The notes below the pieces were generated by a model. The model was not told the DNA's origin, searched no databases, and was given only the letters and a program-made list of their open reading frames with translations. Both the position numbers and the translations under genes were made by a program. From Limibacter armeniacum (lineage in GTDB: Bacteria; Bacteroidota; Bacteroidia; Cytophagales; Flammeovirgaceae): a stretch of 64,000 bases of DNA. Positions 28,270 through 59,653 of this stretch are shown here, piece by piece. Each line of letters begins with the position of its first letter. The stretch's first letter is position 1. The stretch covers positions 930,001 to 994,000 of the forward strand of contig NZ_JBAJNO010000009.1 of NCBI RefSeq assembly GCF_036880985.1. Direction: 5' to 3'.

Positions 28270-30945
28270 TTACTTTTTAATGACCCGTAAATGATCTACC
28301 AATGCAGTGTTAATTTCTACATTCATATTTTCATTGTAATCTTCAAAATTAAGAGAAACTGTATTCTTCCCTTTCTTCAATGTTATAGCCCAAGCATTGG
28401 AATATGCCCAACTTGACCATTCATCTGTCCCCCTCTGAGCCATTACGACTGTTCCTACTGCTTCTCCATTTACCCCCAATGTCCGAAGGGCACACATATT
28501 ATCTGTATTCCATGCTCCACTGCCATTCGCATATCGAAAGTCGATAAAGTATTCACCTGCTTTGGGTGCATTGATTGTCCAGCTAAGGTTTTTATTCGCT
28601 TCTTTAGAGGTTTCGACAGCCCCCTTGCCCGTAAATCCTGTAACTTTTCGTTTGGTTGGCACCACCACTGATTCTGCTTCAATTAGCTGTTGAACTGACG
28701 GTAAGAAAACCTTAACAGGCTCAGCTATAAATGACCAATACCCTGCCTGATCTTTGGCTGCCACTGTATATTCAGCATAAGTCCCTGATGCTTTTACCTC
28801 AAGACTTGTTTTCTCAGTTTGCTCTACTTCTTCCCCATTTTTGAAAACATGGTAACTGGCAGCTCCTTCAATGGCTTTCCATTTGAGTATTCCATTTTCA
28901 TATGTTACTTCAGGAGTTGTCAACGCAAACTTATTTTTAACCAAAGTAAACTTGCTGTCGGCAGAAAAGTCATTATTGACTAATTCAATATCAATAGTAT
29001 GTTCTCCACTAAGGTTGGCCAGAAACTCAGGTTTGGCTTCTTTACCATCCAGCCTAAACGACTTGATCTTAGAACCAAAGCCCTTCAACGAAATATTCAG
29101 AACAGCATTTCTGTATTTGAAATTGGTTAGTGTTTTAGCACCATCATAAGCTTTAGGTACTGCGGGCGTAAATGTAATTCTGTCTGGGTGGTAGTGTATT
29201 CCAAACAACACCTTATATACCATTCCCAAATGTCCGGCTACACTCCACAACTGATAATCCGAATTCAATTCTGTAGCAAAATCGCCATCCTCTGCTACCA
29301 TATTCTCTTTATTGGTTAAGAAGAGTGCTGAAGCACGATAAACACTTGCCAATCCATGTTCCAAAGCTTTTCCATTTTCTACCTTTGCAGCTGCCATATT
29401 ATAGAATGACTGTACAAATGGCCAAATCCCATTGTTATGGTATGGACGGATGCCATCAATCTGCGGATAAAAACATGGTGTTCCATAAGGTACATTGGGC
29501 ACATTACTGACAATTTCCGCTTGCTTATCCCGAGGTGCCACATCATACAACACAGCCAAGGCTTCTCCCAAAGCTTCAGCTCTTGGCAAAGTGATCATGT
29601 AATTTCCCCCATATTTATACATGGCATAAAAGCCTTTATCCTCTTGCCACAGCTCCTTATTGATGGCTTGTTTTAGATCTACAGCTGCCTTTCTGTACTG
29701 ATCCGCAGGCTCACCCAACTCTTTTGCCATTTTAGCGAGGATGTTCCATGTCGCATAATGTACCACATTTGTTCCTAATGCTTCTGTTTGGGAAATGCCG
29801 ACATTATCCATCCAACGAGGGTATTCCTGCTTTCGCCAATCAAGAAAAGAGGTTTCTCCCTTAACTAGCCCATCTTTAGCCATTACATTCTTGAAATCAT
29901 CCTCTACAGTATTTCGGATTATTTCAAAAGCTTCTTTCAGCCATTGCTTATCACCTGTAATACAGTAAAGTTCCCAAGCAGCCAATGACCAAGTGGTTCG
30001 GTCTGTAGAAACAGGCCAAGCCCCACCTGAACCTGTATCTTGCACAATACGATTACGCTTTACTTTCTTACGCAATGAGGTGATACTTCTTTGAGGTTCT
30101 ACAGCTCCCATACCCAACACAATCGCATAGCTTACATCTCTGGTCCAGACACCATCCCACTTTTTACCTGTACGGAAAGTGCCGTCTGCTTCAGATAATT
30201 TGATAACCTCATCCAAAGTCAGGTTGTAGAGAGCGTCTTGCAACGGCATTCCACTTTTGTACTGCGGGTATCCACTGATATCGTTTTCCAACTTCCAACT
30301 ACTGTCAGTATGGGCATCAGGATTTTCGGCATTCATGACTAAAGTAATCTCATAAATGCCATCACCGTCAGGATCTTTCAGTTCATTGCTTAAGTTTTCA
30401 AAATCCCAATTCAAAGGGGCACTTCCACCTGCGATAAACACTCCCTGAAAATCAGACTTCGCCACCTTATCTCCTTGACTATCCTCATAGTAACCCTTTT
30501 CCTCAAAGGCTTTCAAGACATCTCGCATGTCCAAACGGAAGGTCACTTTTGTGTTTTTTTCTAAGTAATCTCCCTCTGAAACCTTATTCTGATCAGCATG
30601 ATGTTTCCCAAACTTGATAATAGGAGTCTGATAACTACCGCCTTCAGGAATGATAATTACACTGTGATTTTTTCCATAAGGCAATTCATTGTCCTTACGG
30701 TTTAAGCTAAACTTGAACTCCACTTTTCGGTCATACGCTTCAGCAGTAGGACTGATATAATTAGAGACCATTTCTGTACCTGACTTTGCAGAAGCAGTGA
30801 AATCACCCTGAGTAACCTTATTGGGATAGATAGAGAATGCTTCGCTACTAAATAGAGCGTCTGATGAGTTTTTGGTTTGTGAACCGCAAGCAGCAAGCAA
30901 AATGGCAGAGAGATAAACAAGTGCCTTGGGCTTGAAGGAAATCAT
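28270..30945 (-). CDS. Six-hairpin glycoside hydrolase lipoprotein with C-terminal CBM
   Basis: An 891-residue surface or periplasmic lipoprotein (LLAACGSQ, Cys20). After an N-terminal beta domain (about 40-235) comes an (alpha/alpha)6 catalytic region (about 240-650) with WDGVWTRDVSYAIVLGMGAV, GGAWPVSTDRTTWSLAAWEL and YHNNGIWPFVQSFYNMA, as in GH63/GH15-like or MGH1-like enzymes. A fibronectin-like domain (about 665-745) and a CBM6/35-like domain (about 750-891, starting IEAESV) follow. It probably trims alpha-glucosides made by the upstream amylases, which is inferred from context. It is the last gene of the leftward SusC1 unit, 207 bases after SusE1. Confidence 0.8.
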   Translation of the reverse strand: MISFKPKALVYLSAILLAACGSQTKNSSDALFSSEAFSIYPNKVTQGDFTASAKSGTEMVSNYISPTAEAYDRKVEFKFSLNRKDNELPYGKNHSVIIIPEGGSYQTPIIKFGKHHADQNKVSEGDYLEKNTKVTFRLDMRDVLKAFEEKGYYEDSQGDKVAKSDFQGVFIAGGSAPLNWDFENLSNELKDPDGDGIYEITLVMNAENPDAHTDSSWKLENDISGYPQYKSGMPLQDALYNLTLDEVIKLSEADGTFRTGKKWDGVWTRDVSYAIVLGMGAVEPQRSITSLRKKVKRNRIVQDTGSGGAWPVSTDRTTWSLAAWELYCITGDKQWLKEAFEIIRNTVEDDFKNVMAKDGLVKGETSFLDWRKQEYPRWMDNVGISQTEALGTNVVHYATWNILAKMAKELGEPADQYRKAAVDLKQAINKELWQEDKGFYAMYKYGGNYMITLPRAEALGEALAVLYDVAPRDKQAEIVSNVPNVPYGTPCFYPQIDGIRPYHNNGIWPFVQSFYNMAAAKVENGKALEHGLASVYRASALFLTNKENMVAEDGDFATELNSDYQLWSVAGHLGMVYKVLFGIHYHPDRITFTPAVPKAYDGAKTLTNFKYRNAVLNISLKGFGSKIKSFRLDGKEAKPEFLANLSGEHTIDIELVNNDFSADSKFTLVKNKFALTTPEVTYENGILKWKAIEGAASYHVFKNGEEVEQTEKTSLEVKASGTYAEYTVAAKDQAGYWSFIAEPVKVFLPSVQQLIEAESVVVPTKRKVTGFTGKGAVETSKEANKNLSWTINAPKAGEYFIDFRYANGSGAWNTDNMCALRTLGVNGEAVGTVVMAQRGTDEWSSWAYSNAWAITLKKGKNTVSLNFEDYNENMNVEINTALVDHLRVIKK

Positions 30946-31152: not shown

Positions 31153-32178
31153 TCAGTTTCGTATTATTTCATAGCGATAGAAAGGTGTTGTATCCAAGTT
31201 TAAGATCACGGTATAATTTCCTTCTTCTGTAACAGGAATAGCCTGTCCGCCAGCTTCCAAAATGCTATCCGGCTGATTATCACCAAACCTCAAATTATCA
31301 GAATCATTTCCCCTAAACTGAAAACTTCCTGATGTCAACATTACACCTTCAGCTTTCCAAACCCTTTCTTCCCTGTTGAACTCCATAGAAATATCCTCTC
31401 CTATTGCTGTCCCTACTATTACCCAATCTGTTTTCAACATTTCATACGTCAAGGAATTTAAGTCTACATTCAATCGGTAATATCCCGCTCCTTCACTTAC
31501 AGGAATCGCTACTTCATTATCACTAATAAGTGCACCTATCATTCCATCTGGATCCTGACCATATTCATATTCCAATACAGGGGCAGGAGTCATCTTAAAA
31601 GAGTCTACCAAGTACAGGTAGCCTTCATATATATTATCTCCATTCACAGACTTAATGACATCGTTATCATTAAACGCTGTTCCATTATGAGTCCCGATTA
31701 CCCATAATGTCATATAAGGAACCTTAAAAGAATAAGGCTCTACAATAAAGCTTTCGGTTGTTGAATAGAGTGTATCTATTTTTGGTAAATCTCCTCTTGA
31801 CACAACCCTTAGGTCTAAGTTATGAGCAAACTCCCCTGACAAGCCCATAGAAAGTAGTGTACTATTTAGGGTACTAACCATTATGTCTATACTGTCTGCG
31901 ATTGTCTCCGCCAATTCTGTGGATGTACTAAAACCATCATTAGACAACTCTAGAGTATAGATAACCGGAAAGCCTGCATTATAATCAGCCTCATCCCATG
32001 AAACTGTTTCCCAAATCTGATCCGCGTTTTCTACAGAAAGTTGATAACTCGTTTCAAATATTGTGTTAAGTGCAGGTGCGGTAGGTTCACTTGAGAGTTT
32101 GACTATATCATCATCACTACAGGCAAAAAAAAGCAAGGCGATCATCATCAAATATTGCTTGCTTATAAAATGTTTCAT
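31153..32178 (-). CDS. SusE/SusF-like outer-membrane binding lipoprotein (SusE1)
   Basis: A 341-residue lipoprotein (LLFFACSDDD, Cys20; SDDD is a surface-export type signal). The N-terminal region from residue 28 looks like the SusE fibronectin-type domain (APALNTIFETSYQLSVEN). Two C-terminal beta modules follow, starting near residues 155 (TLWVIGTHNG) and 250 (DWVIVGTAIG), each like the starch-binding modules of SusE/SusF. It lies 86 bases downstream of SusD1, in the classic susCDE order. It likely holds glucan at the cell surface. Confidence 0.82.
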   Translation of the reverse strand: MKHFISKQYLMMIALLFFACSDDDIVKLSSEPTAPALNTIFETSYQLSVENADQIWETVSWDEADYNAGFPVIYTLELSNDGFSTSTELAETIADSIDIMVSTLNSTLLSMGLSGEFAHNLDLRVVSRGDLPKIDTLYSTTESFIVEPYSFKVPYMTLWVIGTHNGTAFNDNDVIKSVNGDNIYEGYLYLVDSFKMTPAPVLEYEYGQDPDGMIGALISDNEVAIPVSEGAGYYRLNVDLNSLTYEMLKTDWVIVGTAIGEDISMEFNREERVWKAEGVMLTSGSFQFRGNDSDNLRFGDNQPDSILEAGGQAIPVTEEGNYTVILNLDTTPFYRYEIIRN

Positions 32179-32264: not shown

Positions 32265-33893
32265 TTAATAGCCTGGGTTCTGAATCAACCTTGGATTGGC
32301 TGTAATATCCGTTGTAGGAATTGGCATCAGGTCATATCGCTCAGGAACATCAGACCCTTCCAATACACCACCCTTTAAAGGCCAATCATAGCCGGACACA
32401 AACTGTCCAAAACGGATTAAGTCTGTTCTTCTATGACATTCCCAGTACAACTCTCTTGCTCTCTCATCCAAAATAAACTGTAAGTCTACATTGGAAACTG
32501 GTGCCACTCCTGCTCTATCCCGAATTTCGTTGAGATAATCCAAGTGAGCACCTGAAACGGCTTCTCCTAGTCTCAAGTCTACTTCAGCTGCCATCAGGTA
32601 AGCATCTGCTAATCGGAAAACTGGAGCATTCACATCTGAAAAACCTTGGTTTCCACCTCCTCCAGCTACACCTTCACGGGTTTTATTTTTAAACTTAATT
32701 ACCGCATACCCTTGAGTAAACTGGTCTTGTTGCTGTATCTCCAATGTCTGACCATCTGTATAAAACAACGCTCGGGCATCACCTGCACTAAATTTCTCAA
32801 CCAATGCAGAAGTAGTTCTGTTACCACCCCAACCTGAGTTGGTACCGTAATCAGAAGGGATCATACTACCTCCAATAGAAGCATTGACGATATAGGTAGT
32901 ACCTCCAAAAGATTGAGAATTCAATCCATCAAAGTTTATTGAGAAGATAATCTCATCATTGCTTCTATAGTTGTCTGCAAGGAATAGAAATTCATAAGGA
33001 TGATAAACATCTCCTGCTGCGGCAGTGGTAATCAATGAAAAACCGCCTTCATCAATCACTTTATCTAAATAAGTTCTCGCACTCTCATACATTGTCGCAT
33101 TTTCACTTCCAAGATAAACTGCATGATTCAAGTACAATTTTGCTAAAAGCATCCAACCTGCAGCCTTGTCTGCACGACCAATTTGAAGTGTTCTTGGGTC
33201 TCCCAATTGTGGTGACTCTGCATTACCATCTCCAACAATATCCAGTAGTTCACTTTCAAGATAATTGAATAGCTCAGGTCCTCTTTCATCTTCACCTGCT
33301 GGTAGAGGCAAATCTCCTCCTATAGCTGTCTCTTCTGTTGTAAATGGTATTCTGTTTCCAAAAAGATCCAATGCATGCCAATAAGCAAATGCTCTCAGAA
33401 AACGTGCTTCTGCAATATATGTATCGGCATTTTCCCAATCTTCTTGAACTACATTATTGGCTTGTCTCAAATACTCATTAGCGACAGATACCTGATACAG
33501 TGCCCTGTAATAGAATGAACGGATAAACTCATTGGCAGAAGTCCAAGTCACTTGACTCATTCGTGGCAGGTTACCATCATTCCAACCATTTACCGCTTCA
33601 TCCGTAGGCAGTTCCTGACAAACAAAGAAACCTCTCCAATACTGGCTATTACCTTCGTCAAATCCTTCAAGGTCTCCGTTTCCTGCAGGTCCTTCCTGTC
33701 CTGAAACTGCAAATCCTGCATATATTTTCATTAGCCCACTCAAGAAAGCATCTTCATCTTCATATACCTGTTCTGCTGCTTTTTGATCAGGGTCCACTGG
33801 ATCAATATCCAAATCATTTACACATGCCGAAAACGACATGACCAAGACCAGAAAAATGGCCTTCCAAATTATATTAATGTGTTTGTTGTTCAT
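32265..33893 (-). CDS. SusD/RagB-family nutrient-binding lipoprotein (SusD1)
   Basis: A 542-residue outer-membrane lipoprotein (SFSACVNDLD, Cys24). The TPR-like SusD fold is shown by the N-terminal FLSGLMKIYAGFAVSG, the EARFLRAFAYWHALDLFGNRI segment, and the C-terminal DERARELYWECHRRTDLIRFGQ hallmark. It forms the lid on SusC1, captures oligosaccharide and hands it to the transporter. It starts 11 bases after the susC1 stop codon, so the two are co-translated from one transcript. Confidence 0.95.
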   Translation of the reverse strand: MNNKHINIIWKAIFLVLVMSFSACVNDLDIDPVDPDQKAAEQVYEDEDAFLSGLMKIYAGFAVSGQEGPAGNGDLEGFDEGNSQYWRGFFVCQELPTDEAVNGWNDGNLPRMSQVTWTSANEFIRSFYYRALYQVSVANEYLRQANNVVQEDWENADTYIAEARFLRAFAYWHALDLFGNRIPFTTEETAIGGDLPLPAGEDERGPELFNYLESELLDIVGDGNAESPQLGDPRTLQIGRADKAAGWMLLAKLYLNHAVYLGSENATMYESARTYLDKVIDEGGFSLITTAAAGDVYHPYEFLFLADNYRSNDEIIFSINFDGLNSQSFGGTTYIVNASIGGSMIPSDYGTNSGWGGNRTTSALVEKFSAGDARALFYTDGQTLEIQQQDQFTQGYAVIKFKNKTREGVAGGGGNQGFSDVNAPVFRLADAYLMAAEVDLRLGEAVSGAHLDYLNEIRDRAGVAPVSNVDLQFILDERARELYWECHRRTDLIRFGQFVSGYDWPLKGGVLEGSDVPERYDLMPIPTTDITANPRLIQNPGY

Positions 33894-33904: not shown

Positions 33905-36900
33905 TTAGAATGATAGATTAACGCCTAGCAAGTAAGTTCTCGGACGTGGATAAAAGTTGTTGTCAATACCTATAGTAGAAACACCATCTTCATCAATGTT
34001 GTTAACTTCTGGGTCGATTCCATCATAATCCGTAATGACAAACAGGTTATTGACAGTTGCATAAACCCTTGCATAAGAAGTCTCTCCAAAAATCTTATCG
34101 AAGCTATAACCTAAAGAGATATTATCCAGACGGAAGAAAGAGGCATCTTGTACATAATAGTCAGAGAAGTATTGTGGAGCTTGGAAACGGGTATCATAAA
34201 TATCAGAGGTCACATTTCTCAAGTACTGACCAGAAGTCTGTAACTTATTAAGATAGGCACCTTCCGAATCCACATTGTTGTAAACATAGTTTCCAAAGTT
34301 TGCACGTCCTGTTGCACTAAAGTCCCAGCTTCTATATGTAAGACGTGTCGTTAAACCAAATAATGCTTTTGGTGCAGGCTGCTTGTATTGTCTTTTATCT
34401 GCATCGTTTATTGCGCCATCATTATTTCGGTCCACATACACTCCTTCAACAGGTTTGCCATCATCATCATATACTTGTTCAAATACAAAGAAAGAGAAGG
34501 CTGGATGTCCTACACTATGTATCTGTATTGTGTTACCTGTACCTCCGGCAATATCACCTGTCAATACGCCCAAGTAATTTGGATCGTCCACATTGGTCAG
34601 CTTTGTGATCTCATTTTTGTTATAAGTGAAGTTCACTCCAATTTCCCAGAACCAATCCTCATTTTGAATGGCATTATAATTCAGCGCGAACTCGATACCT
34701 TTGTTTTCCAGACTACCCACATTAGTGATCAACTCATTACTCAGGTTTGAACCCGAAGCCACAGGAATCTGGTTAAGCAAGTCATCAGTTTTCCGGTAAT
34801 AGAAGTCTAACAAACCATTCACCCTATCGTTGAAGAAACCGTAATCAATACCAACGTTCCATGTTGTGGTTTCTTCCCATTTCAAGTTAGGGTCAAACTC
34901 TTCTGGTCGCAGTGTAGCAAATTGAACCTTCTCAAAAGTTCCATCATTGTTGTATAAAACATAATTGGCTGTAGGCTGGCTTCTGGTGTATACACTTCGG
35001 TAACCAAAGTCCTGCCCAATATCCTGCTGTCCTGTTACACCATAACCTGCTCTAAGCTTCAGTGTACTTACTTTTTCAGAATCGTTCAGGAATGGCTCAT
35101 TACTGATATTCCAAGCTAAAGCTAGAGATGGAAACAACCCCCATCTTTCATCGTCTCCAAAGCGTGAAGAACCATCATTACGCAAGGTGAAAGTTAACAG
35201 GTATTTGCTTTTCCATGTATAATTCAATCGACCAAAGAAAGATACCAGTCTGTACTTTGTTTTATCAATTGCCAAAGGGCTTCGCACTCTTGGTTCTAAG
35301 ACTCCTTGGTCATTCAGTACTGAGTCTCCAAAAACCTCCATAGACCTATCAGACACATCAAACTCCTGCCAAGAGTAACCTGCCAACACTGACAAGTTCG
35401 ACTCTATATCTGGGAACTCTTTTTCATAAGCCAAGTAGAATTCCAACAGCTTGTTTCTCTTATACTGTGAGTAGTCTTGGAATGAGCCCGTTTCATAAGC
35501 TGCCGCATCATAAGAAGCTCCAGGCAGATTATCTACTTCGCCATCTGAATCAGACCAGTCATACCCAAGGTTCAGGTTAGCACGAAGAGCAGGTAAAAAG
35601 TGGAAGCGGTAATCCAACTGAATATTACCCAGTGAACGCCAAACCTCTGATCTATCGTCCTTGAAGGTTCTGTAGGCTACAGGGTTAAATGGAGCAATCG
35701 GATTGGGGTTTCCTGCTGCATCTGCCCAAAAGAACAACTCACCATCTTCATCTCTGACAGGTTGTGTAGGGTCCATATTGATTGCATTACCAATAGACGC
35801 CTGATCTGCAAACCGGTTCTTAATATACATCCCTTTAATCGACAGGTTGATTTTCAAGTGACTGTCAAACAGTTGAGGATTAAGGTTGATATTACCAGTC
35901 CAACGCTCCAAGTTAGTTGGTCTTAAGGTACCGTCTGCATTGTTATAACCTATGGATACCCTATAAGGCAATACTCCTTGGTTGATTGAACCAGACACCG
36001 CTACATTGTGCTCCGTTGCCCAAGCTTTCTTAAATATTTCATCCTGCCAATCAGTATCGGCATCTCCCATCAAGCCAATTATATTGGGGTCGTTTGCAAA
36101 TTGTTCGTTGATTAAGGCTCTGTACTCCGTACCATTCAAGACATCTATATCTTTTGTCGGTACTGCCAAAGAAACATTACCTGAGTAATCTACCGTTATC
36201 TTGTCACCTCGTCCTTTTTTGGTGGTGATGATAATAACCCCATTGGAAGCCCTTGAACCATAAATTGCTGTCGAAGAGGCATCCTTTAGCACTGTAAAAG
36301 TCTCAATATCATTTGGGTTAATGGTATTCAAAGGGTTACGCATACCTGCTACATTGTCATTATCAATTGGCACACCATCGATAATGATTAGGGGGTCATT
36401 GGTAGCTGTAAGCGATGAACCACCCCTGATACGAATAATGGCTCCTGATCCTGGTGCACCACCCGCTGTCGTAATCTGAACGCCGGGTATTTTACCATTC
36501 ACAAGCTCTTGAGGGGATGCTACAGCACCTTTGTTAAACTCATCTGTAGAAACCGATTGAACGGCACCTGTCAAATCTTCTTTCTTAGCAGTACCGTAAC
36601 CAATCACCACCACTTCTTCAAGCTGTTCGGCATCCACTTCCATCTGCATATTAATATTCGTTTGAGTCCCTATCTGGACCTCCTTAGGCAAGTAACCTAC
36701 ATAGGAAAAAACCAAAACACCATCACTGGGCAGGTTAAGTGTATATTTACCATCAAAATCTGTAATGGTACCATACTGGGTATTCTTGAGCTGAATAGAG
36801 ACACCTGGTAAAGGCTGTCCATTTTCATCTACTACCTCTCCACTAACAGTCCGTTCTTGTGCCAATACCATCAGGGGCATCATCAGCACGAGTAACATTG

Positions 36901-36937
36901 TTGCGAGGCAATGAAATAAGTAGCAATTCTTCTTCAT
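33905..36937 (-). CDS. SusC/RagA-family TonB-dependent transporter (SusC1)
   Basis: The 1010-residue outer-membrane protein has a signal peptide ending MVLAQ, a carboxypeptidase-D-like domain (VSGEVVDENGQPLPGVSIQL), a TonB-box region (EEVVVIGYGTAKKEDLTGAV), a plug domain (NGKIPGVQITT, VLKDASSTAIYGSRASNGVI) and a long beta-barrel ending in Phe. It imports oligosaccharides with TonB energy, working with SusD1. Plug details are close to SusC3 and to starch-type SusC. Promoter elements lie in the gap to the terminator at 37281. Confidence 0.95.
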   Translation of the reverse strand: MKKNCYLFHCLATMLLVLMMPLMVLAQERTVSGEVVDENGQPLPGVSIQLKNTQYGTITDFDGKYTLNLPSDGVLVFSYVGYLPKEVQIGTQTNINMQMEVDAEQLEEVVVIGYGTAKKEDLTGAVQSVSTDEFNKGAVASPQELVNGKIPGVQITTAGGAPGSGAIIRIRGGSSLTATNDPLIIIDGVPIDNDNVAGMRNPLNTINPNDIETFTVLKDASSTAIYGSRASNGVIIITTKKGRGDKITVDYSGNVSLAVPTKDIDVLNGTEYRALINEQFANDPNIIGLMGDADTDWQDEIFKKAWATEHNVAVSGSINQGVLPYRVSIGYNNADGTLRPTNLERWTGNINLNPQLFDSHLKINLSIKGMYIKNRFADQASIGNAINMDPTQPVRDEDGELFFWADAAGNPNPIAPFNPVAYRTFKDDRSEVWRSLGNIQLDYRFHFLPALRANLNLGYDWSDSDGEVDNLPGASYDAAAYETGSFQDYSQYKRNKLLEFYLAYEKEFPDIESNLSVLAGYSWQEFDVSDRSMEVFGDSVLNDQGVLEPRVRSPLAIDKTKYRLVSFFGRLNYTWKSKYLLTFTLRNDGSSRFGDDERWGLFPSLALAWNISNEPFLNDSEKVSTLKLRAGYGVTGQQDIGQDFGYRSVYTRSQPTANYVLYNNDGTFEKVQFATLRPEEFDPNLKWEETTTWNVGIDYGFFNDRVNGLLDFYYRKTDDLLNQIPVASGSNLSNELITNVGSLENKGIEFALNYNAIQNEDWFWEIGVNFTYNKNEITKLTNVDDPNYLGVLTGDIAGGTGNTIQIHSVGHPAFSFFVFEQVYDDDGKPVEGVYVDRNNDGAINDADKRQYKQPAPKALFGLTTRLTYRSWDFSATGRANFGNYVYNNVDSEGAYLNKLQTSGQYLRNVTSDIYDTRFQAPQYFSDYYVQDASFFRLDNISLGYSFDKIFGETSYARVYATVNNLFVITDYDGIDPEVNNIDEDGVSTIGIDNNFYPRPRTYLLGVNLSF

Positions 36938-37386: not shown

Positions 37387-40300
37387 TTACTGCTTAATAA
37401 TTCTTTTAAGTGTTCTACCTTCTTCTGTTACTATTTCCATCATATACATTCCACTATGGAAAGATGCGGTACTGAACACTACAGGATAACCAGCTTCTTC
37501 AATAGTTTGCCATACAAGTCTTCCGGTCAGGTCAAAAATCCGGACATTGATATCTCCTTTCAGTCCGACCGTCTTCATATTAAAGGATTCACCAAACGGA
37601 TTGGGATATATCAACACCTGCGCAGATAAGGCATTACCATCCAATCCATTTGCCTCTGACTGAACTGTAACAGTCCATTCTTGTGATGTACCATCTTCTG
37701 CTACTACTGTAAAGACGACAGGAGAAGAATAGTCTCTAGCTACTCCAGGGTCTGGGGTGATGGTAGCAAACTGAGATATCTCATAGACTGCAGACTGACT
37801 CTTAATGTCATTTCCTGTAGGTAACAGCAACTGTACGGTGTGAGCCTCTCCATCAATTGCACCTGCAACATCCGCCATCGTGAATGATAGCAAGTCATTG
37901 GCAGTACTCTTACCTGCAGAAATAGTCACTACCCATTCTTGTGTACTTCCATCTTCTGCGGTTACGGTATATACCACAGGAGAGGTATAGTCACGTGCTG
38001 CTGAAGGATCAGGTGAAATCGTCGCATTTGTGGAGATCCTTACTACTGCCGCCAAATTTGTCAGGTCAGTACCGTCAGGCATTACCAACCGTATTGATGA
38101 AGCCCCTTGATCAATCAAGGCATCAAAACCATCAACATTATAGGACAATATATTCTTGGCAGTACTTAACACTTGAGGGTCTTGGAACGAGACTGTCATC
38201 TCATTGAGGTTCACCACTACCTTATATGTTCCGGTAGGCTTTCCTTCAGGCAAGGAGATATCTCCTCCTTCACCGTCAGCAATCCTGAGGTCTACATTGT
38301 TATCAGAGCCGTATTCCGTACCAGCACTATAATCTAAAGCGTCAATAAACTTAAAGGAATCACCAGGCTGTAAATCCATTATTACAGAATACTCTCCATT
38401 GCCATTGGTCTGAAGTTCTTGTGCATTTGTCAAACTCCAATCCATCATTGAACCTATCAACCATACCTGCTCAGGGAAAAGCTTAAAGTTCGCATAGTAA
38501 TATTCTCCAAGAGGTGATTTCTGTTCTTCAGTCCCTTCTGCATTTCGGAAATACATCCCAATCCTGTAAGGCAATTCATTTTCCCCTATATCAAAATAAT
38601 CGCTTGGTGTAATGATTATTTGCCAAGAACCATCAGGTTGTTTCACCATCTTCCCCTTCTCATTGTCATCATTGACCAAATCTACCACCTTACTGCTCTC
38701 AGGACCTTCCAAAACAATTCCAGATGCCATATGCACCTCTTCTGCATCTGAAAGAGCTGAACCGGCTTTGGCAGGATCAAAATATATCTTGATAACTGTA
38801 TTGGCATCAAACTCTGTTGGGAATACCGCCACTGTAGTATTATCCTCTTTTATCATGCCTTGCTTAGGGAATGTAATAGGCTTACTCACCAATAACTTGA
38901 ACTCTCCAGGTCCCAATATGAATGCGCCGTTTACAGGAACATTTTTTCCTCCAGCAAAATAATCGAACCAAGCATTTCCAACTTCTGTCAAGTCATACTC
39001 TACTCTAGCTGCTGACATGCCAAAGTTGCCAATCATCTTCACATTGAGATCAGCTCCTGTCAACAATATTTCTTTCAAACGCAATGATCCTCCCATCTTC
39101 ATTGTGACATTCTCACTCATCAATGCATTCAAGTTATATGTCTCCCTTAACGCCAGCAGTGTCTTGTACAACTCATAAAGCTCTTTACGCTCAGCCTCAT
39201 CAGCATAACTCCATAAAACAGGCTTAGGCGCATCCATATTATCTTCACTCAAAGCTCCATTCACTTCATTTTGCATCAATGATACATCATAACCCAATTC
39301 ACCGAACTGCCAAAGCATTTTAGGACCAGGGGTCATTAGAAAGAATGCAGCACTCTGCTTCAGTCGCTGGAAAGCTGTCGACATATCTGTAATATTATAG
39401 TCTCCTCTCATTCTTCCCTTAAATAAAGCTTCATACGCCAGACGTTCCTGATCGTGACTTTCCATAAAGCTGATCAGGTTCAGGTTTTCAAATTCATAAA
39501 AGCCTGCATACTGAAACTCCAGATTTGCGTAACCTCCTTTGGACGTTTCCCTGAATACTGGGTTCTCATTTCCTTGAACCAGCAATCCATAAGCTGCTAA
39601 TGTCTTTCTTTCCTCATAATCTGTATCATGGTCCAACACAACCAATGCTTCCTGATTTACCTTCCATATTTCATCAGCCATTCGCTCAATAAGCTGTACA
39701 CGTGAAGCGTCAGGCTGCCAGCCATTTCCAGCCACGTTCGTAAAACCATTTGAGAAGTCGAAACGTAACCCATCTACCTTGAATTCATTAAGCCAATAAG
39801 CATTGACCCTATCTACAAACTGCTGAGCCAATGGGTTAGCATGGTCCAAATCGTACCCTTTTGTAAAACCTACATGGGGTTGGTTTCCATTGTACCAAGG
39901 GTTTATCGCTGTTGGCACTCCTGAGGCAGAGCTATACAACTTTACTAATGGTGATTCAGCCATTGTATGATTTAATACAATATCCAATACAACAGCCATT
40001 CCTTTTCCATGAATTGCATCAATCAGTGCTTTCAAGTCTTCAGCTGTTCCATATGACTTATCTGGGGCAAAATAGAACAAGGGGTTATAGCCTTGACTGC
40101 TGTTTCCTTCAAACTCCATAACAGGCATAATCAAAACTGTATTAACGCCTAGGTCTTTGAGATAATCTAGTCTGCTTATTGCGGCCTTAAAGCTTCCTTC
40201 TGACGTAAAATCTCGAATATGCATTTCATATATCACCAAGTCCTCATTATCAGAGATTGTTACCGCATTGGATTGCCATGTATAAGCTGCTGCGCCAGTC

Positions 40301-41058
40301 TCCAAAACAGCTACGGCTCCCTCTGTCTTTCCTTCTGGATATAACTTTAAGTCTGGATATACAGTTGTTGCTATCTCACTATCCTCTTCATTAAGCACCT
40401 TCTCTGCATAAGGATCTGCCAACTTTAAACCACCGTCAATCCAATACTGAAAAGCATACTCCTGCCCTGCCTGCAATCCATTCAACTCTAACCAAAAGTA
40501 ATTTCCATCTGCCTCTTCTGACTTTTTCATCAGGTAAGCACTTTTCTCTTCCCAATCTGTAAAGTCTCCTACTACATAAGCAAATGCTTTTACCTTCGCC
40601 GGATCATGCAATACAAGAACAGCCTTTGACGTATTTCCTCCTATATAATTAACCCCAGGCACAGTACCTGCCGGTCTTTGGGCAGTCTGAACTGCTGGCA
40701 TAACCTGATAGGTCAGTGTTAAGGACTCTGTATCAGCTCCAGCTGTTGCAGTAGCTACTACATTTACAAAACCTCCATCTTCTGTGACAACATGTGTATA
40801 GGTAAGCTGGGTAGCATTGGCAACCGTCTTCACTTCCTCCCCTCCAATTGTCAGGGTAATGGTTGATGATGTTTCAGTAGACAGTTCAAAATATATTGAC
40901 TGGGCCTTTTCAACAAAACCCAATCCACCAGGAGACACGAACTTGAGTCCCAAAGCGACATCTTCCACTTTTTTATTGGGTGTATTGGAATACGCATAAC
41001 GGGCTACTACTGCCAAAAGGCAAAGCCACACGAACATGTAAAGTCTGTGTTTTATCAT
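37387..41058 (-). CDS. Multidomain GH13 amylase-like protein with T9SS tail (amylase 1)
   Basis: A 1223-residue secreted protein. Order: signal peptide (1-24); beta domain (about 30-120); a GH13-type N-terminal module with VVGDFTDWEE (about 130-240); catalytic barrel (about 275-640) with DIVLNH, GLRFDFSNG (nucleophile Asp434) and ESHDQE (His535-Asp536); GH13 C-domain; two beta modules (about 715-965); two repeated DUF5018-like domains (970-1054 and 1055-1133); and a T9SS sorting domain (1148-1223). The acid/base position holds Asp476 (VVLDHD) where amylase 2 has Glu595, so activity may be lost. Substrate is an alpha-glucan, by family and context. Confidence 0.9.
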   Translation of the reverse strand: MIKHRLYMFVWLCLLAVVARYAYSNTPNKKVEDVALGLKFVSPGGLGFVEKAQSIYFELSTETSSTITLTIGGEEVKTVANATQLTYTHVVTEDGGFVNVVATATAGADTESLTLTYQVMPAVQTAQRPAGTVPGVNYIGGNTSKAVLVLHDPAKVKAFAYVVGDFTDWEEKSAYLMKKSEEADGNYFWLELNGLQAGQEYAFQYWIDGGLKLADPYAEKVLNEEDSEIATTVYPDLKLYPEGKTEGAVAVLETGAAAYTWQSNAVTISDNEDLVIYEMHIRDFTSEGSFKAAISRLDYLKDLGVNTVLIMPVMEFEGNSSQGYNPLFYFAPDKSYGTAEDLKALIDAIHGKGMAVVLDIVLNHTMAESPLVKLYSSASGVPTAINPWYNGNQPHVGFTKGYDLDHANPLAQQFVDRVNAYWLNEFKVDGLRFDFSNGFTNVAGNGWQPDASRVQLIERMADEIWKVNQEALVVLDHDTDYEERKTLAAYGLLVQGNENPVFRETSKGGYANLEFQYAGFYEFENLNLISFMESHDQERLAYEALFKGRMRGDYNITDMSTAFQRLKQSAAFFLMTPGPKMLWQFGELGYDVSLMQNEVNGALSEDNMDAPKPVLWSYADEAERKELYELYKTLLALRETYNLNALMSENVTMKMGGSLRLKEILLTGADLNVKMIGNFGMSAARVEYDLTEVGNAWFDYFAGGKNVPVNGAFILGPGEFKLLVSKPITFPKQGMIKEDNTTVAVFPTEFDANTVIKIYFDPAKAGSALSDAEEVHMASGIVLEGPESSKVVDLVNDDNEKGKMVKQPDGSWQIIITPSDYFDIGENELPYRIGMYFRNAEGTEEQKSPLGEYYYANFKLFPEQVWLIGSMMDWSLTNAQELQTNGNGEYSVIMDLQPGDSFKFIDALDYSAGTEYGSDNNVDLRIADGEGGDISLPEGKPTGTYKVVVNLNEMTVSFQDPQVLSTAKNILSYNVDGFDALIDQGASSIRLVMPDGTDLTNLAAVVRISTNATISPDPSAARDYTSPVVYTVTAEDGSTQEWVVTISAGKSTANDLLSFTMADVAGAIDGEAHTVQLLLPTGNDIKSQSAVYEISQFATITPDPGVARDYSSPVVFTVVAEDGTSQEWTVTVQSEANGLDGNALSAQVLIYPNPFGESFNMKTVGLKGDINVRIFDLTGRLVWQTIEEAGYPVVFSTASFHSGMYMMEIVTEEGRTLKRIIKQ

Positions 41059-46419: not shown

Positions 46420-49400
46420 TTAATGCTTAATAAGTTTTTTCACCTCCCTGCCTTTCTCCGAAAAGATTTGCATCAAATACATTCCACTTCTCAATTGGGA
46501 AGTATTCAGTTCTACAGGTTGCGTTGCTTGCACTTCATAAGTTGTAATTACTTTCCCTGACATGTCTGTCAGTACAACATTGACGGTTCCCTGAACCGCT
46601 TCTGCTGTAACTACCAACCAATCTGAAAATGGGTTGGGAGCAACTTTGAAACTGCCAACACCTAAGTTATCCTCAATGCCTGTCACCTGATCTTCTCTTT
46701 CAAAGGCGACAGTTTTAGCAGACAAGTTTGCAGTTACCTCATATGTTCCTGCTGTCAATCCTGAAGGTAGTTTTATGTCATCTCCCTCATAGTTAGCTTC
46801 AACCAAAACTTGGCTGTCTTTAGAACCATATTGTGTAACATTTGCCCAATCATCAGCCGCTGTAATAAACTTAAAGCCTTCACTTGCTGATCCGGTAAGC
46901 TCCAAGGTAATGGTATAAATCCCATCGCCTTGATTCTCCATTTTCTCCGCTTTAAATGGATCCCAACCTCCTTCAGTCATTGAGCCTACTACAAACAAGT
47001 CACCACTGAACTGCTGAAAATCCTTGAAGAATGGTTTTCCTTCAGCTGCTGTCACTGAAACACTGCTATCTGCATTACGGAACTGGATAGCCAACCTGAA
47101 AGGTTGATCTTCTGCACTCAGCCCAAAGTACGTTGCAGGTGTAAGCGTTATTTCCCATAAACCATCTGCTGTTTTGGTCATTTTGCCCTTGGTGTTGTTA
47201 TCAACTGTATTGGCCAATGTTTCACTGTCCGCTCCATCCATCACCAAGCTAGCCACCATATACACTTCAGCAGCCTCTGCAAGCTCTGCCCCACCAACGG
47301 TTGGATCAAAAATTACGGTAATCTCTGTAGATGGTGTAAACTCAGCAGGCGTTACAGTCATCTGCTCACCGCCAACAGCCACTAGACCTGTTTCAGGATA
47401 AGTCACTGCCTCATTTACCAATACCATAAATGCTCCGGGAGCCATCAACATAGTACTGGAAGCTGGAACTTCTTTTCCATTTTCAAAATAGCTATACCAA
47501 GTACTACCATCTGCTGAATAATCATAGGCAACCTTTTCGGCTGTAACTCCAAAATTACCAATCACCTTTACAGTAAAGCTGCCATTTGTCAGTGAGTATT
47601 CTTTTACTACTTTATCAGCTCCTATTGACAGTGAGACATCACTGCCTGAAAGGCTGTATAACTCCTTTTCATTTCTTAGGCTAATCAATGCCTGATACAC
47701 TTTATAAAGGCTCGCACGGTCAGCGTCTTCGGTATACGACCACAGTACTGGTTTACGGGATGTTCTATTACCGTCATTTACCTCTCCTCCTAACGCTGTC
47801 TGATTGATGGATACATCATATCCCAGTTCTCCAAATTGCCAGATCATTTTTGGCCCTGGTATTGGCAGGAAAAAAGCTGTGTTCAGTTTCATTCGCTGAA
47901 TTGCGGTCTGCTTATCCTGTAAGTCGTATTCACTTGTCTGTTTACCGAAGTTCAGTGCGTCATACAGCATTCGCTCTTCATCATGGCTTTCCATATAACT
48001 CAACACACCATGCTGTGTCATACCTCTTGTGCCATGATATTGCCAATCAAGGTTAGCATTACCTCCTTTGGCATTGGTACGGAAATCATGATTGATATTT
48101 CCCCAAAGCAAGATTCCTTCAGCTGCCAGTACCTGTTCCTCACTATTGTCAGCTAAATGCTCAAAGATTACATAAGCATCTTCCTGTCCAGCATTGTTCC
48201 ATATTTCACCAGCCATTCTTGTCAAGATTGCAATACGGGAATCGTCCCTGCCATGACCTTCTCCAGGTGTTTGTGTAAAACCTTTTGTAAAGTCAAATCT
48301 GTAACCGTCAATATTGTATTCTTCTAGCCAGAACGTGTTCACTGAATCTATGAATGCCTGCGTATATAGGCTTTCATGGTTAAAGTCAGCACCCCAGCTA
48401 TAAGTAGGGTTTGGAGAATCTACATTGAACCAAGGGTTGGCTGCTGTTGGCTTTCCATAATCCCCTTCATTGTACATTCTAACCAGTGGAGCTGAATTAT
48501 AAGAGTGGTTCAATACCATATCAATCACCACTGCAATCCCTTTTCCATGTGCTGCGTCAATAAATGCCTTCAAATCATCTTTGGTACCATAATACTTATC
48601 AGGCGCAAAGTAGAAGTTAGGGTTATAACCCCAGCTATCATTGCCCTCAAACTCATTTACTGGCATCAGGTGGATACAATTGGCTCCCAGTTCCTTGATA
48701 TAGTCTAAACGATCAGTTGCTGCTTCGTAAGTTGATTCTTCCGTAAAGTCTCTAACATGCATTTCATACACCACCAGACTTTCTTTGGCCGGACGCTGAA
48801 AATCTGTAATGCTCCATACATACTCAGGTTGGTTTGTTTGGAATACTGATGCCCTGTATGAAGTGCTGTTTTCAGGATATGCAATCAGGTTAGGATATCT
48901 AGTTTCCTCTATATATTTATCATCAAAATCAGATACCTTTTCCGTATATGGATCAGCAATCTTAAGACTTCCATCGATCAGGTATTGATAGATATATTCC
49001 TTTCCAGCCTCTACTGTCATCTCCAACCAGAAATAGTTGGCATCAGCCTCTTCTGACTTTTTCATCAGGTAAGTTTCGCTTGACACCCAGTCGGAAAACT
49101 CTCCAATCACATTGACAAATTCTTTTTCCTTTGCGGGGTCCTGCAATACCAATGTGACTTTTGTAGGATTGCTTTCATTGTAGTTAGCTCCCAAATGAAG
49201 TCCTTCAGGACGTGGAGCCAGTACTACTTCCGGCTTTACATAAAATGATACTGTTTCTTCTAAAGAAACCTCATCACTATTTGCCTTCACGACAACATCG
49301 ACTGATCCAGAAACAGTTGCTGTATATGAATAAGACAGCTCTGAAACCGCTGTAGCTGCCTTTACTTCACTGCCATTTACCCAAATACTCAGGTCAGCAG

Positions 49401-49944
49401 CAGAGGAAGCTGTTGCCGTAATATTTACGGACTCTCCAATTGAATAAACCTCCTTTGCAGGGGCTACCGAAACATCTAAAGTTAAACTGAGTTCAGAAAA
49501 TGTAATTGATGCATCACCAGTCTTGGTATTACCGTCATCACTTCTCAATAGATAGCCCACACTTTCAATCTGGTTAGGTGCTACTCCTATTAGCTCAGCA
49601 AGATTATTAGCTGTTTTCTCAGTATTATTTCTGTCTGTAAAAGTTAAGGGAAGTTTAAAAGTATATTTGTTTGACTGTCCTTCAACAGGTGCCAACTTAG
49701 CGCCATTCAGCATTGACGTAGTCCAACTACCCCCGTTAGTTTGCCAATCTCCTACGTTTGACCATCCCCAAATATAAATATCACTTAGTCCCTCAACGTT
49801 AGTCCCTGACACATCAAAAGTAATGGTTACTTCATCCAAAACTGTCGCATTTGCTGGTTCAAGCGACACCTTTGGTGTTTGAGCAAATGCTGTAATACTT
49901 ACCCCTAGTAGGAATAAGAGTATCCGTAATTGTTTCAAGATCAT
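46420..49944 (-). CDS. Multidomain GH13 alpha-amylase-family enzyme with T9SS tail (amylase 2)
   Basis: An 1174-residue secreted enzyme. Order: signal peptide (1-21, ends AFAQ); N-terminal beta domain with IYIWGWSNVGDW; a second beta domain; a GH13 N-module with VIGEFSDW; catalytic barrel with DMVLNH, GYRFDFTKG (nucleophile Asp551), VIFEHLAD (acid/base Glu595) and ESHDEE (Asp655); GH13 C-domain; two accessory beta modules; and a T9SS sorting domain (about 1098-1174, starting VAPNPFSDW). All GH13 catalytic residues are present. It should cut starch-like glucan at the cell surface or outside the cell. Confidence 0.93.
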   Translation of the reverse strand: MILKQLRILLFLLGVSITAFAQTPKVSLEPANATVLDEVTITFDVSGTNVEGLSDIYIWGWSNVGDWQTNGGSWTTSMLNGAKLAPVEGQSNKYTFKLPLTFTDRNNTEKTANNLAELIGVAPNQIESVGYLLRSDDGNTKTGDASITFSELSLTLDVSVAPAKEVYSIGESVNITATASSAADLSIWVNGSEVKAATAVSELSYSYTATVSGSVDVVVKANSDEVSLEETVSFYVKPEVVLAPRPEGLHLGANYNESNPTKVTLVLQDPAKEKEFVNVIGEFSDWVSSETYLMKKSEEADANYFWLEMTVEAGKEYIYQYLIDGSLKIADPYTEKVSDFDDKYIEETRYPNLIAYPENSTSYRASVFQTNQPEYVWSITDFQRPAKESLVVYEMHVRDFTEESTYEAATDRLDYIKELGANCIHLMPVNEFEGNDSWGYNPNFYFAPDKYYGTKDDLKAFIDAAHGKGIAVVIDMVLNHSYNSAPLVRMYNEGDYGKPTAANPWFNVDSPNPTYSWGADFNHESLYTQAFIDSVNTFWLEEYNIDGYRFDFTKGFTQTPGEGHGRDDSRIAILTRMAGEIWNNAGQEDAYVIFEHLADNSEEQVLAAEGILLWGNINHDFRTNAKGGNANLDWQYHGTRGMTQHGVLSYMESHDEERMLYDALNFGKQTSEYDLQDKQTAIQRMKLNTAFFLPIPGPKMIWQFGELGYDVSINQTALGGEVNDGNRTSRKPVLWSYTEDADRASLYKVYQALISLRNEKELYSLSGSDVSLSIGADKVVKEYSLTNGSFTVKVIGNFGVTAEKVAYDYSADGSTWYSYFENGKEVPASSTMLMAPGAFMVLVNEAVTYPETGLVAVGGEQMTVTPAEFTPSTEITVIFDPTVGGAELAEAAEVYMVASLVMDGADSETLANTVDNNTKGKMTKTADGLWEITLTPATYFGLSAEDQPFRLAIQFRNADSSVSVTAAEGKPFFKDFQQFSGDLFVVGSMTEGGWDPFKAEKMENQGDGIYTITLELTGSASEGFKFITAADDWANVTQYGSKDSQVLVEANYEGDDIKLPSGLTAGTYEVTANLSAKTVAFEREDQVTGIEDNLGVGSFKVAPNPFSDWLVVTAEAVQGTVNVVLTDMSGKVITTYEVQATQPVELNTSQLRSGMYLMQIFSEKGREVKKLIKH

Positions 49945-58621: not shown

Positions 58622-59653
58622 ATGAAGAAAGGACAATTGACGATGCAGGACATTGCTGACAAGCTCGGCATTTCCAAATCCACCGTCTCGAGAGCACTTA
58701 AAGATCATCCAGATATTAGCGAAAAAACGAAGAAGGCTGTTATGCAGCTGGCCAATGAACTGGACTTTCAACCAAATTCACTTGCCTTAAGTCTGAGACA
58801 CAACCGCTCGAATATTATTGGCGTTATTGTTCCTGAAATTGTACATCATTTTTTTGCTAATGTGATTAGTGGCATACAGGCTGTAGCTTACCGTGAAGGA
58901 TACAATGTCATGATCTGTCTTTCAAATGAAGATTTTGACCAGGAAGTGAAAGATGCTTTTGCCCTTCAGACAAGCCGTGTAGATGGAATCCTGATGTCAA
59001 TCTCCAAAGAAACTACTGACTTCGAACACCTTAAAAAAATACACCGTAAAGGAACGCCAATTGTATTTTTTGACCGTGCTTGCGACGAAATGGATGTTAG
59101 CAAGGTTATATCTGATGATTTTGGAGGAGCATTCAGTGCCACACAACATTTGATTGAACAAGGTTGTAAACAGGTTGTACACCTTGCTGGCCCTGCTACA
59201 TTAGCGCTGAGTAAAAGCAGAAAAGATGGGTACTTGGCTGCTTTGAAAGAAAATGGTATCGCTCCTGATGATAATTTGATTGTAGAGTGTCCTGCCGGAA
59301 CAATGGAAGACGGTGAAGACAAAGTGAACCAACTGCTTGCAAGTGGACTCAAGATAGATGGCATCTTTGCTAATAACGACATAGCAGCTATTGGCGCTAT
59401 GAAAGCTGCCAAAAAGCATGGTCTCCGAATTCCTGAAGACATTGCAGTCGTTGGTTTTAGTGATTGGCAAATTGCCTCAATTGTGGATCCGGCACTTTCA
59501 TCAGTAGCACAACCAGGCTATGAAATGGGACGAATTGCTGCTGAAAAGCTACTTAAAGAAATCAATGCTGATGAAGATGAAGTGGTTCCATCTATGACCA
59601 GTACAATACGGTCAGAGTTGGTTGTAAGAGATTCTTCTCTCAGAAAAAAATAA
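58622..59653 (+). CDS. LacI-family transcriptional regulator
   Basis: A 343-residue regulator: N-terminal helix-turn-helix (MQDIADKLGISKSTVSRAL) with the hinge helix (FQPNSLALSLR), then a periplasmic-binding-protein-like sensor domain (IIGVIVPEIVHHFFANVISG, GIFANNDIAAIGAM, DIAVVGFSDW). The sensor probably binds a sugar from glucan breakdown. It is divergent from susC3, so it is the best candidate regulator of the locus. Bacteroidota often control starch loci with SusR-type or hybrid sensors, and none is present here. Confidence 0.9.
   Translation: MKKGQLTMQDIADKLGISKSTVSRALKDHPDISEKTKKAVMQLANELDFQPNSLALSLRHNRSNIIGVIVPEIVHHFFANVISGIQAVAYREGYNVMICLSNEDFDQEVKDAFALQTSRVDGILMSISKETTDFEHLKKIHRKGTPIVFFDRACDEMDVSKVISDDFGGAFSATQHLIEQGCKQVVHLAGPATLALSKSRKDGYLAALKENGIAPDDNLIVECPAGTMEDGEDKVNQLLASGLKIDGIFANNDIAAIGAMKAAKKHGLRIPEDIAVVGFSDWQIASIVDPALSSVAQPGYEMGRIAAEKLLKEINADEDEVVPSMTSTIRSELVVRDSSLRKK

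Follow-up and report, generated by a model that had tools for sequence, protein, structure and literature searches.

GH13 is among the best-studied enzyme families, and its acid/base Glu is taken as indispensable. What, then, does a secreted GH13 protein do that has Asp at this position and is encoded next to a paralogue with the normal Glu? The question is raised by a large starch-type locus of Limibacter armeniacum in the window, by which we mean the whole 64,000-nucleotide stretch of DNA that was analysed. The locus encodes three SusC/D pairs, SusE- and SusF/E-like proteins, a six-hairpin glycosidase and two GH13 proteins, amylase 1 and amylase 2. Our best answer is that amylase 1 is probably no longer an ordinary amylase. 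Tentatively, and at somewhat under an even chance, we take it to be an enzyme that still acts on glucan, very slowly or in a new role; that it is instead a non-catalytic partner of amylase 2 is nearly as likely.

The locus

Amylase 1 is the first gene of an apparent run with its own SusC, SusD and SusE, and the active-type paralogue amylase 2 lies about 5 kb away. The genes concerned are:

37387..41058, minus strand: amylase 1, GH13_47-type protein (whole gene)
33905..36937, minus strand: SusC-like TonB-dependent transporter, directly downstream of amylase 1 (named by eye)
32265..33893, minus strand: SusD-like protein, same strand as amylase 1
31153..32178, minus strand: SusE-like protein, same strand as amylase 1
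28270..30945, minus strand: six-hairpin glycosidase with a CBM35-like end, same strand as amylase 1
46420..49944, minus strand: amylase 2, GH13_47 paralogue with the normal Glu595

The three SusC/D pairs are found within 27 kb (31153-58000). Two are on the minus strand; the third, which lies between the two GH13 genes, is on the plus strand. A LacI-type regulator at 58622 was named by eye, as were the SusC proteins. The catalytic part of the glycosidase at 28270-30945 matched no solved structure by sequence and no NCBIfam model, and its CBM35 part matches structures. Elsewhere in the searched sequences, equal-scoring matches were found twice each on the contigs G000:C3 and G000:C6, 339 kb and 183 kb apart; these may reflect circular contigs whose ends are doubled, or a duplication made in assembly.

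Domain architecture and secretion of amylase 1

The amylase 1 open reading frame is intact, has no internal stop and encodes 1,223 amino acids. Its parts, all on the minus strand, are:

40987..41058, minus strand: likely signal peptide, about residues 1-24, MIKHRLYMFVWLCLLAVVARYAYS (judged by eye)
38881..40677, minus strand: CBM48-like E-set domain, (beta/alpha)8 barrel and domain C, residues 128-726
38530..38832, minus strand: DUF4961, residues 743-843
38179..38481, minus strand: SusE/F-like or CBM-like module (weak match), about residues 860-960
37657..38127, minus strand: two DUF5018-type repeats, residues 978-1134
37396..37611, minus strand: T9SS type A sorting domain

The C-terminus carries the signature of T9SS cargo, with TIGR04183 matching residues 1150-1223 (E-value 1.2e-12), and the genome itself encodes SprA of the T9SS (SprA_N match). 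The T9SS thus probably carries amylase 1 to the cell surface or outside. DUF4961 and the SusE/F-type module are common to amylase 1 and amylase 2. Within the latter module amylase 1 has Tyr910, at a position where amylase 2 and seven relatives keep a Trp. The structure model of the C-terminal half, with the putative binding domains, was too poor for use (pLDDT 51). The initial annotation had seen the DUF5018-like domains as fitting a binding role. The repeats do not point specifically to binding: large proteins encoded elsewhere in the genome carry them too, and they have no known glucan-binding function; they are more likely spacers.

Subfamily and fold

In phmmer searches of solved structures, amylase 1 matched 8xx9 and 8xxa best (461 and 458 bits), followed by 8dge and 8dl1 (310 and 309 bits), and the next structure reached at most 126 bits. 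The title of 8xx9 names RmGH13_47A of Rhodothermus marinus, that of 8dge BoGH13ASus of Bacteroides ovatus, and that of 8dl1 'BoGH13ASus-E523Q', bound to maltoheptaose. Both enzymes are assigned to subfamily GH13_47 (PMC11239784). Residues 121-740 of amylase 1 were modelled with a mean pLDDT of 88 and a pTM of 0.91, and the model aligned to 8xxa with a Z-score of 43.1 and to 8dl1 with 41.5, compared to 28.4 for the next structure. Amylase 1 is thus closest to GH13_47 by both sequence and fold, and is assigned to this subfamily on these grounds. With RmGH13_47A and BoGH13ASus it shares the CBM48-A-B-C domain order, the fold, the nucleophile, the stabiliser, the -1-subsite residues and an outer-surface Sus-like setting. 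It differs from them in the Asp that replaces the acid/base Glu, in W322Q, K437N, W495Q and E537Q, and in its C-terminus of DUF4961, SusE/F-like module, DUF5018 repeats and T9SS tail.

Asp476 occupies the acid/base position

The positions of the pocket that are discussed below were compared in an alignment of 239 distinct relatives, which came from named genomes and from genomes of the same family, order and class:

40093..40095, minus strand: Gln322, two residues ahead of the -1-subsite Tyr324; Trp in 239 of 239 relatives
39757..39759, minus strand: Asp434, catalytic nucleophile position, kept
39748..39750, minus strand: Asn437; Lys in 236 of 239 relatives
39631..39633, minus strand: Asp476, acid/base position, codon GAC; Glu in 238 of 239 relatives
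39625..39627, minus strand: Asp478, a gained acid; Phe, Leu or Trp in 239 of 239 relatives
39574..39576, minus strand: Gln495 on strand beta6; Trp in 238 of 239 relatives
39565..39567, minus strand: Glu498, a gained acid directly after strand beta6
39448..39456, minus strand: His535 and Asp536 kept (Asp536 at the stabiliser position), followed by Gln537, which is Glu in 237 of 239 relatives

The span from the codon of Asp536 through the codon of Asp434 is exactly 39451-39759. In the phmmer alignments, the residue facing Asp476 is Glu in both 8xx9 and 8dge; in 8dl1 it is Gln, and this Gln is the sole residue in which 8dl1 differs. In the model, strand beta4 ends at Asp434 and strand beta5 at Asp476, and Ser534-His535-Asp536 follow beta7. 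We assign residue 476 as the acid/base position because the alignments to solved structures, the strand ends of the model and the Glu of 238 relatives agree, and because no substitute Glu is in register. A different Glu at this position was looked for in the alignment, which offers none; near the pocket a single Glu has been gained, Glu498 after beta6. Active GH13 enzymes have a nucleophile Asp at the end of beta4, a proton donor Glu at the end of beta5 and a transition-state stabilising Asp after beta7. The first is present in amylase 1 as Asp434 and the third as Asp536, and the Glu at the end of beta5 is absent.

These results bear out the initial annotation, which had proposed that Glu595 of amylase 2 corresponds to Asp476 of amylase 1. 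Glu595 lies at the matching place, and the 34 residues after it align without gaps between the two proteins, with 16 identical. The reported change of LLWGN to LLVQGN is also real and puts Gln495 in place of the Trp, and the retention of the nucleophile Asp434 and the SHD motif is seen in both the model and the alignment of relatives.

Other residues of the pocket

Tyr324, His364, Arg432, Asp434, His535 and Asp536 are all kept in amylase 1. The initial annotation had not mentioned W322Q, K437N or E537Q, nor the gain of acids at 478 and 498. Acids were gained at three columns that are nearly free of acids in the relatives (Asp478, Glu498 and Asp609), of which Asp478 and Glu498 follow beta5 and beta6. 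In GH13 enzymes, the Lys three residues after the nucleophile and the residue two after the acid touch acceptor sugars. By what is known of other GH13 enzymes, residues 437, 478 and 495 presumably line the acceptor subsites. Because the changes fall on the acid and its neighbours and spare the residues of the donor side, we read the pocket as an apparently intact donor site with a changed acid and acceptor side, so that ordinary amylase turnover is likely to be very low.

Conservation among relatives

Only one of the 239 relatives lacks Glu at column 476, namely L115 (also L156, on G259:C10), which has Asp. Of the 72 columns that are at least 95% conserved, amylase 1 keeps 64 and differs at 8, compared to a mean of 0.8 and a maximum of 6 changes in the other relatives, a count that slightly favours these other rows, since amylase 1 and L115 were left out when the columns were chosen and the other rows were not. 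The 12 relatives that are equally far from the consensus (49-51% identity) have 0-3 changes at these columns. When each row was left out in turn (121 relatives), amylase 1 had 6 changes at 82 columns against a mean of 1.3, which ranks it second to L115 and level with one row whose changes miss the triad. Judged from these alignments, the changes of amylase 1 at near-invariant columns exceed what chance would give.

L115 (L115:1414-3603; L156; G259:C10:11647-13833) is a secreted GH13_47 relative of 729 residues with a T9SS tail, which has lost the whole triad. Its genome also has two normal copies. D434F, E476D and D536E are joined by changes at 19 more near-invariant columns (21 of 72 in the 95% count). 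By its residues, L115 is to be regarded as a truly dead relative, a predicted pseudo-enzyme independent of amylase 1. No pseudo-enzyme lineage was found around it in 60 further genomes of its family, where the best matches are at most 43% identical; the matches from this family that meet the cut-offs are counted among the 239 relatives. Another second GH13_47 copy, L112 (G267:C22:196244-198001), in a frame of 1,891 residues, sits on a long branch (1.27); it has Asn for Ser in the SHD motif and keeps the triad.

An orthologue with the same Asp was sought in the same family (17 genomes), the order (about 390) and the class (395), in 27 other named loci and in plasmids, and none was found; the genus was represented by this genome alone. 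As yet, the Asp476 variant is seen in one genome. Within the part of the literature that was covered, no GH13_47 protein was described as having lost the Glu.

Evolutionary history

The closest sequence to amylase 1 is amylase 2 (48-49% identity). Both form one clade with nine relatives of the same family (support 100/99), and within it amylase 1 is placed outside amylase 2 and the relatives (93/90). Its branch of 1.04 changes per site is about four times as long as that of amylase 2 (0.26). A tree with amylase 1 and amylase 2 as sisters was not rejected (AU test, p = 0.136), and the data appear neither to favour nor to reject a recent duplication of amylase 2 within the genome. We take amylase 1 to be an old, fast-evolving GH13_47 paralogue.

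Possible functions of amylase 1

The initial annotation had offered a pseudo-enzyme that binds glucan, or changed chemistry. That amylase 1 would not be an ordinary amylase holds up as likely, and the glucan binding is unproven; DUF4961 and the SusE/F-type module, which amylase 2 with its normal Glu has as well, do not speak for it. Sequence and model agree on an intact barrel that keeps the residues for binding and attack of the donor sugar, and in which the general acid has changed from Glu to Asp along with several neighbours. With a side chain one methylene too short at the end of beta5, Asp476 would lower ordinary alpha-amylase turnover by orders of magnitude. In the slow or repurposed enzyme that we tentatively prefer, selection would still retain the protein for alpha-glucan handling at the donor site, and the proton would come from Asp476 or from a gained acid, Asp478 or Glu498. 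Its substrate would meet an acceptor side unlike that of amylase 2, and the downstream SusC/SusD/SusE run of its own would fit a different glucan or fragment. This reading draws on the donor-site residues kept along a branch of about 1.0 change per site, whereas L115, the one other relative with Asp, has lost the whole triad. The 8 of 72 near-invariant changes against 0-3 in equally divergent relatives, the normal GH13_47 fold of the pLDDT 88 model and the two acids gained after beta5 and beta6 also speak for it. Moreover, BmaN1 of GH13_45 is active without the usual nucleophile and stabiliser (PMC5347038). Against it, glucan binding would suffer as well from the loss of two invariant Trp and of a conserved Lys.

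Nearly as likely, amylase 1 may be a non-catalytic partner. As a true pseudo-enzyme it would hold alpha-glucan in the impaired pocket and hand it on to amylase 2 or the SusCD transporters, in the way that isoamylase 2 works with isoamylase 1 in plants. Crystallographers mutated this very column (E523Q of BoGH13ASus, 8dl1) to trap maltoheptaose, the donor-site residues that are kept also bind glucan, and an active paralogue is 5 kb away. Non-catalytic ISA2 is a documented GH13 precedent (PMC12510319), and L115 is a fully dead T9SS-tailed relative in another genome. However, the loss of W322, W495, K437 and the Trp at position 910 of the module would weaken binding, the DUF5018 repeats are not known binders, and the scrambled triad of the known dead relative is not seen in amylase 1.

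Two further readings are each unlikely. Amylase 1 may be a redundant duplicate under relaxed active-site selection that is on its way to a pseudogene. The long branch (1.04 vs 0.26 for amylase 2) and the unusual number of near-invariant changes would suit such decay, as would the occurrence in a single genome with a normal copy next door. The reading frame of 1,223 residues, though, has no stop and retains the secretion signal, all modules and the T9SS tail, 64 of 72 near-invariant columns are kept despite the long divergence, and the intact donor-side residues argue against decay as well. Alternatively, and with about as little probability, the proton donor may have been relocated, with the acids at 478 and/or 498 serving as general acid or with Asp476, Asp478 and Asp480 holding a metal ion. 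If true, amylase 1 would be a GH13 enzyme that keeps its donor site intact and whose acid and acceptor side have been rebuilt.

Still more doubtful is an ordinary alpha-amylase that uses Asp476 as acid/base at a near-normal rate. For the GH13 acid/base residue, a change of Glu to Asp is expected to cost orders of magnitude in activity; in addition, 238 of 239 relatives have Glu and the pocket carries further changes. The rest of the triad is intact, and other families of retaining alpha-glucosidases, GH57 among them, use Asp as acid/base (PMC5347038). Least of all do we expect an isolated sequencing or assembly error at codon 476, as W322Q, W495Q, K437N, E537Q and the long branch are separate changes which cannot all be errors in an open frame, even though GAC is one base away from GAA or GAG and was seen in one assembly.

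Comparison to other GH13 proteins without the normal catalytic residues

GH13 members without the normal catalytic residues include rBAT, 4F2hc and some GH13_48 proteins (PMC11239784), and the nucleophile of BmaN1 was proposed to have moved by one position (PMC5347038). Plant isoamylase 2 (GH13_11) has no normal catalytic residues and, like amylase 1, an active paralogue in the same organism. It belongs to another subfamily, and amylase 1 is not known to form a physical complex with amylase 2. In the BmaN1 group of GH13_45 part of the triad is replaced, as in amylase 1. The pattern is the reverse: BmaN1 keeps the Glu, has its nucleophile and stabiliser replaced and was shown to be active (PMC5347038), whereas amylase 1 keeps nucleophile and stabiliser and has the Glu replaced. 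The rBAT and 4F2hc heavy chains are likewise non-enzymatic GH13 members, but they are animal transporter subunits and have lost far more residues. Since other GH13 groups have such members, amylase 1 can be seen as a further variant among those lacking normal catalytic residues.

Amylase 1 is a natural secreted GH13 protein in which only the acid/base residue of the triad is changed, next to an active paralogue in the same starch locus. It also speaks against labelling proteins like it as alpha-amylases. It offers a test case of whether surface pseudo-enzymes may aid glucan capture in Bacteroidota, or whether the acid of GH13 may be replaced or moved.
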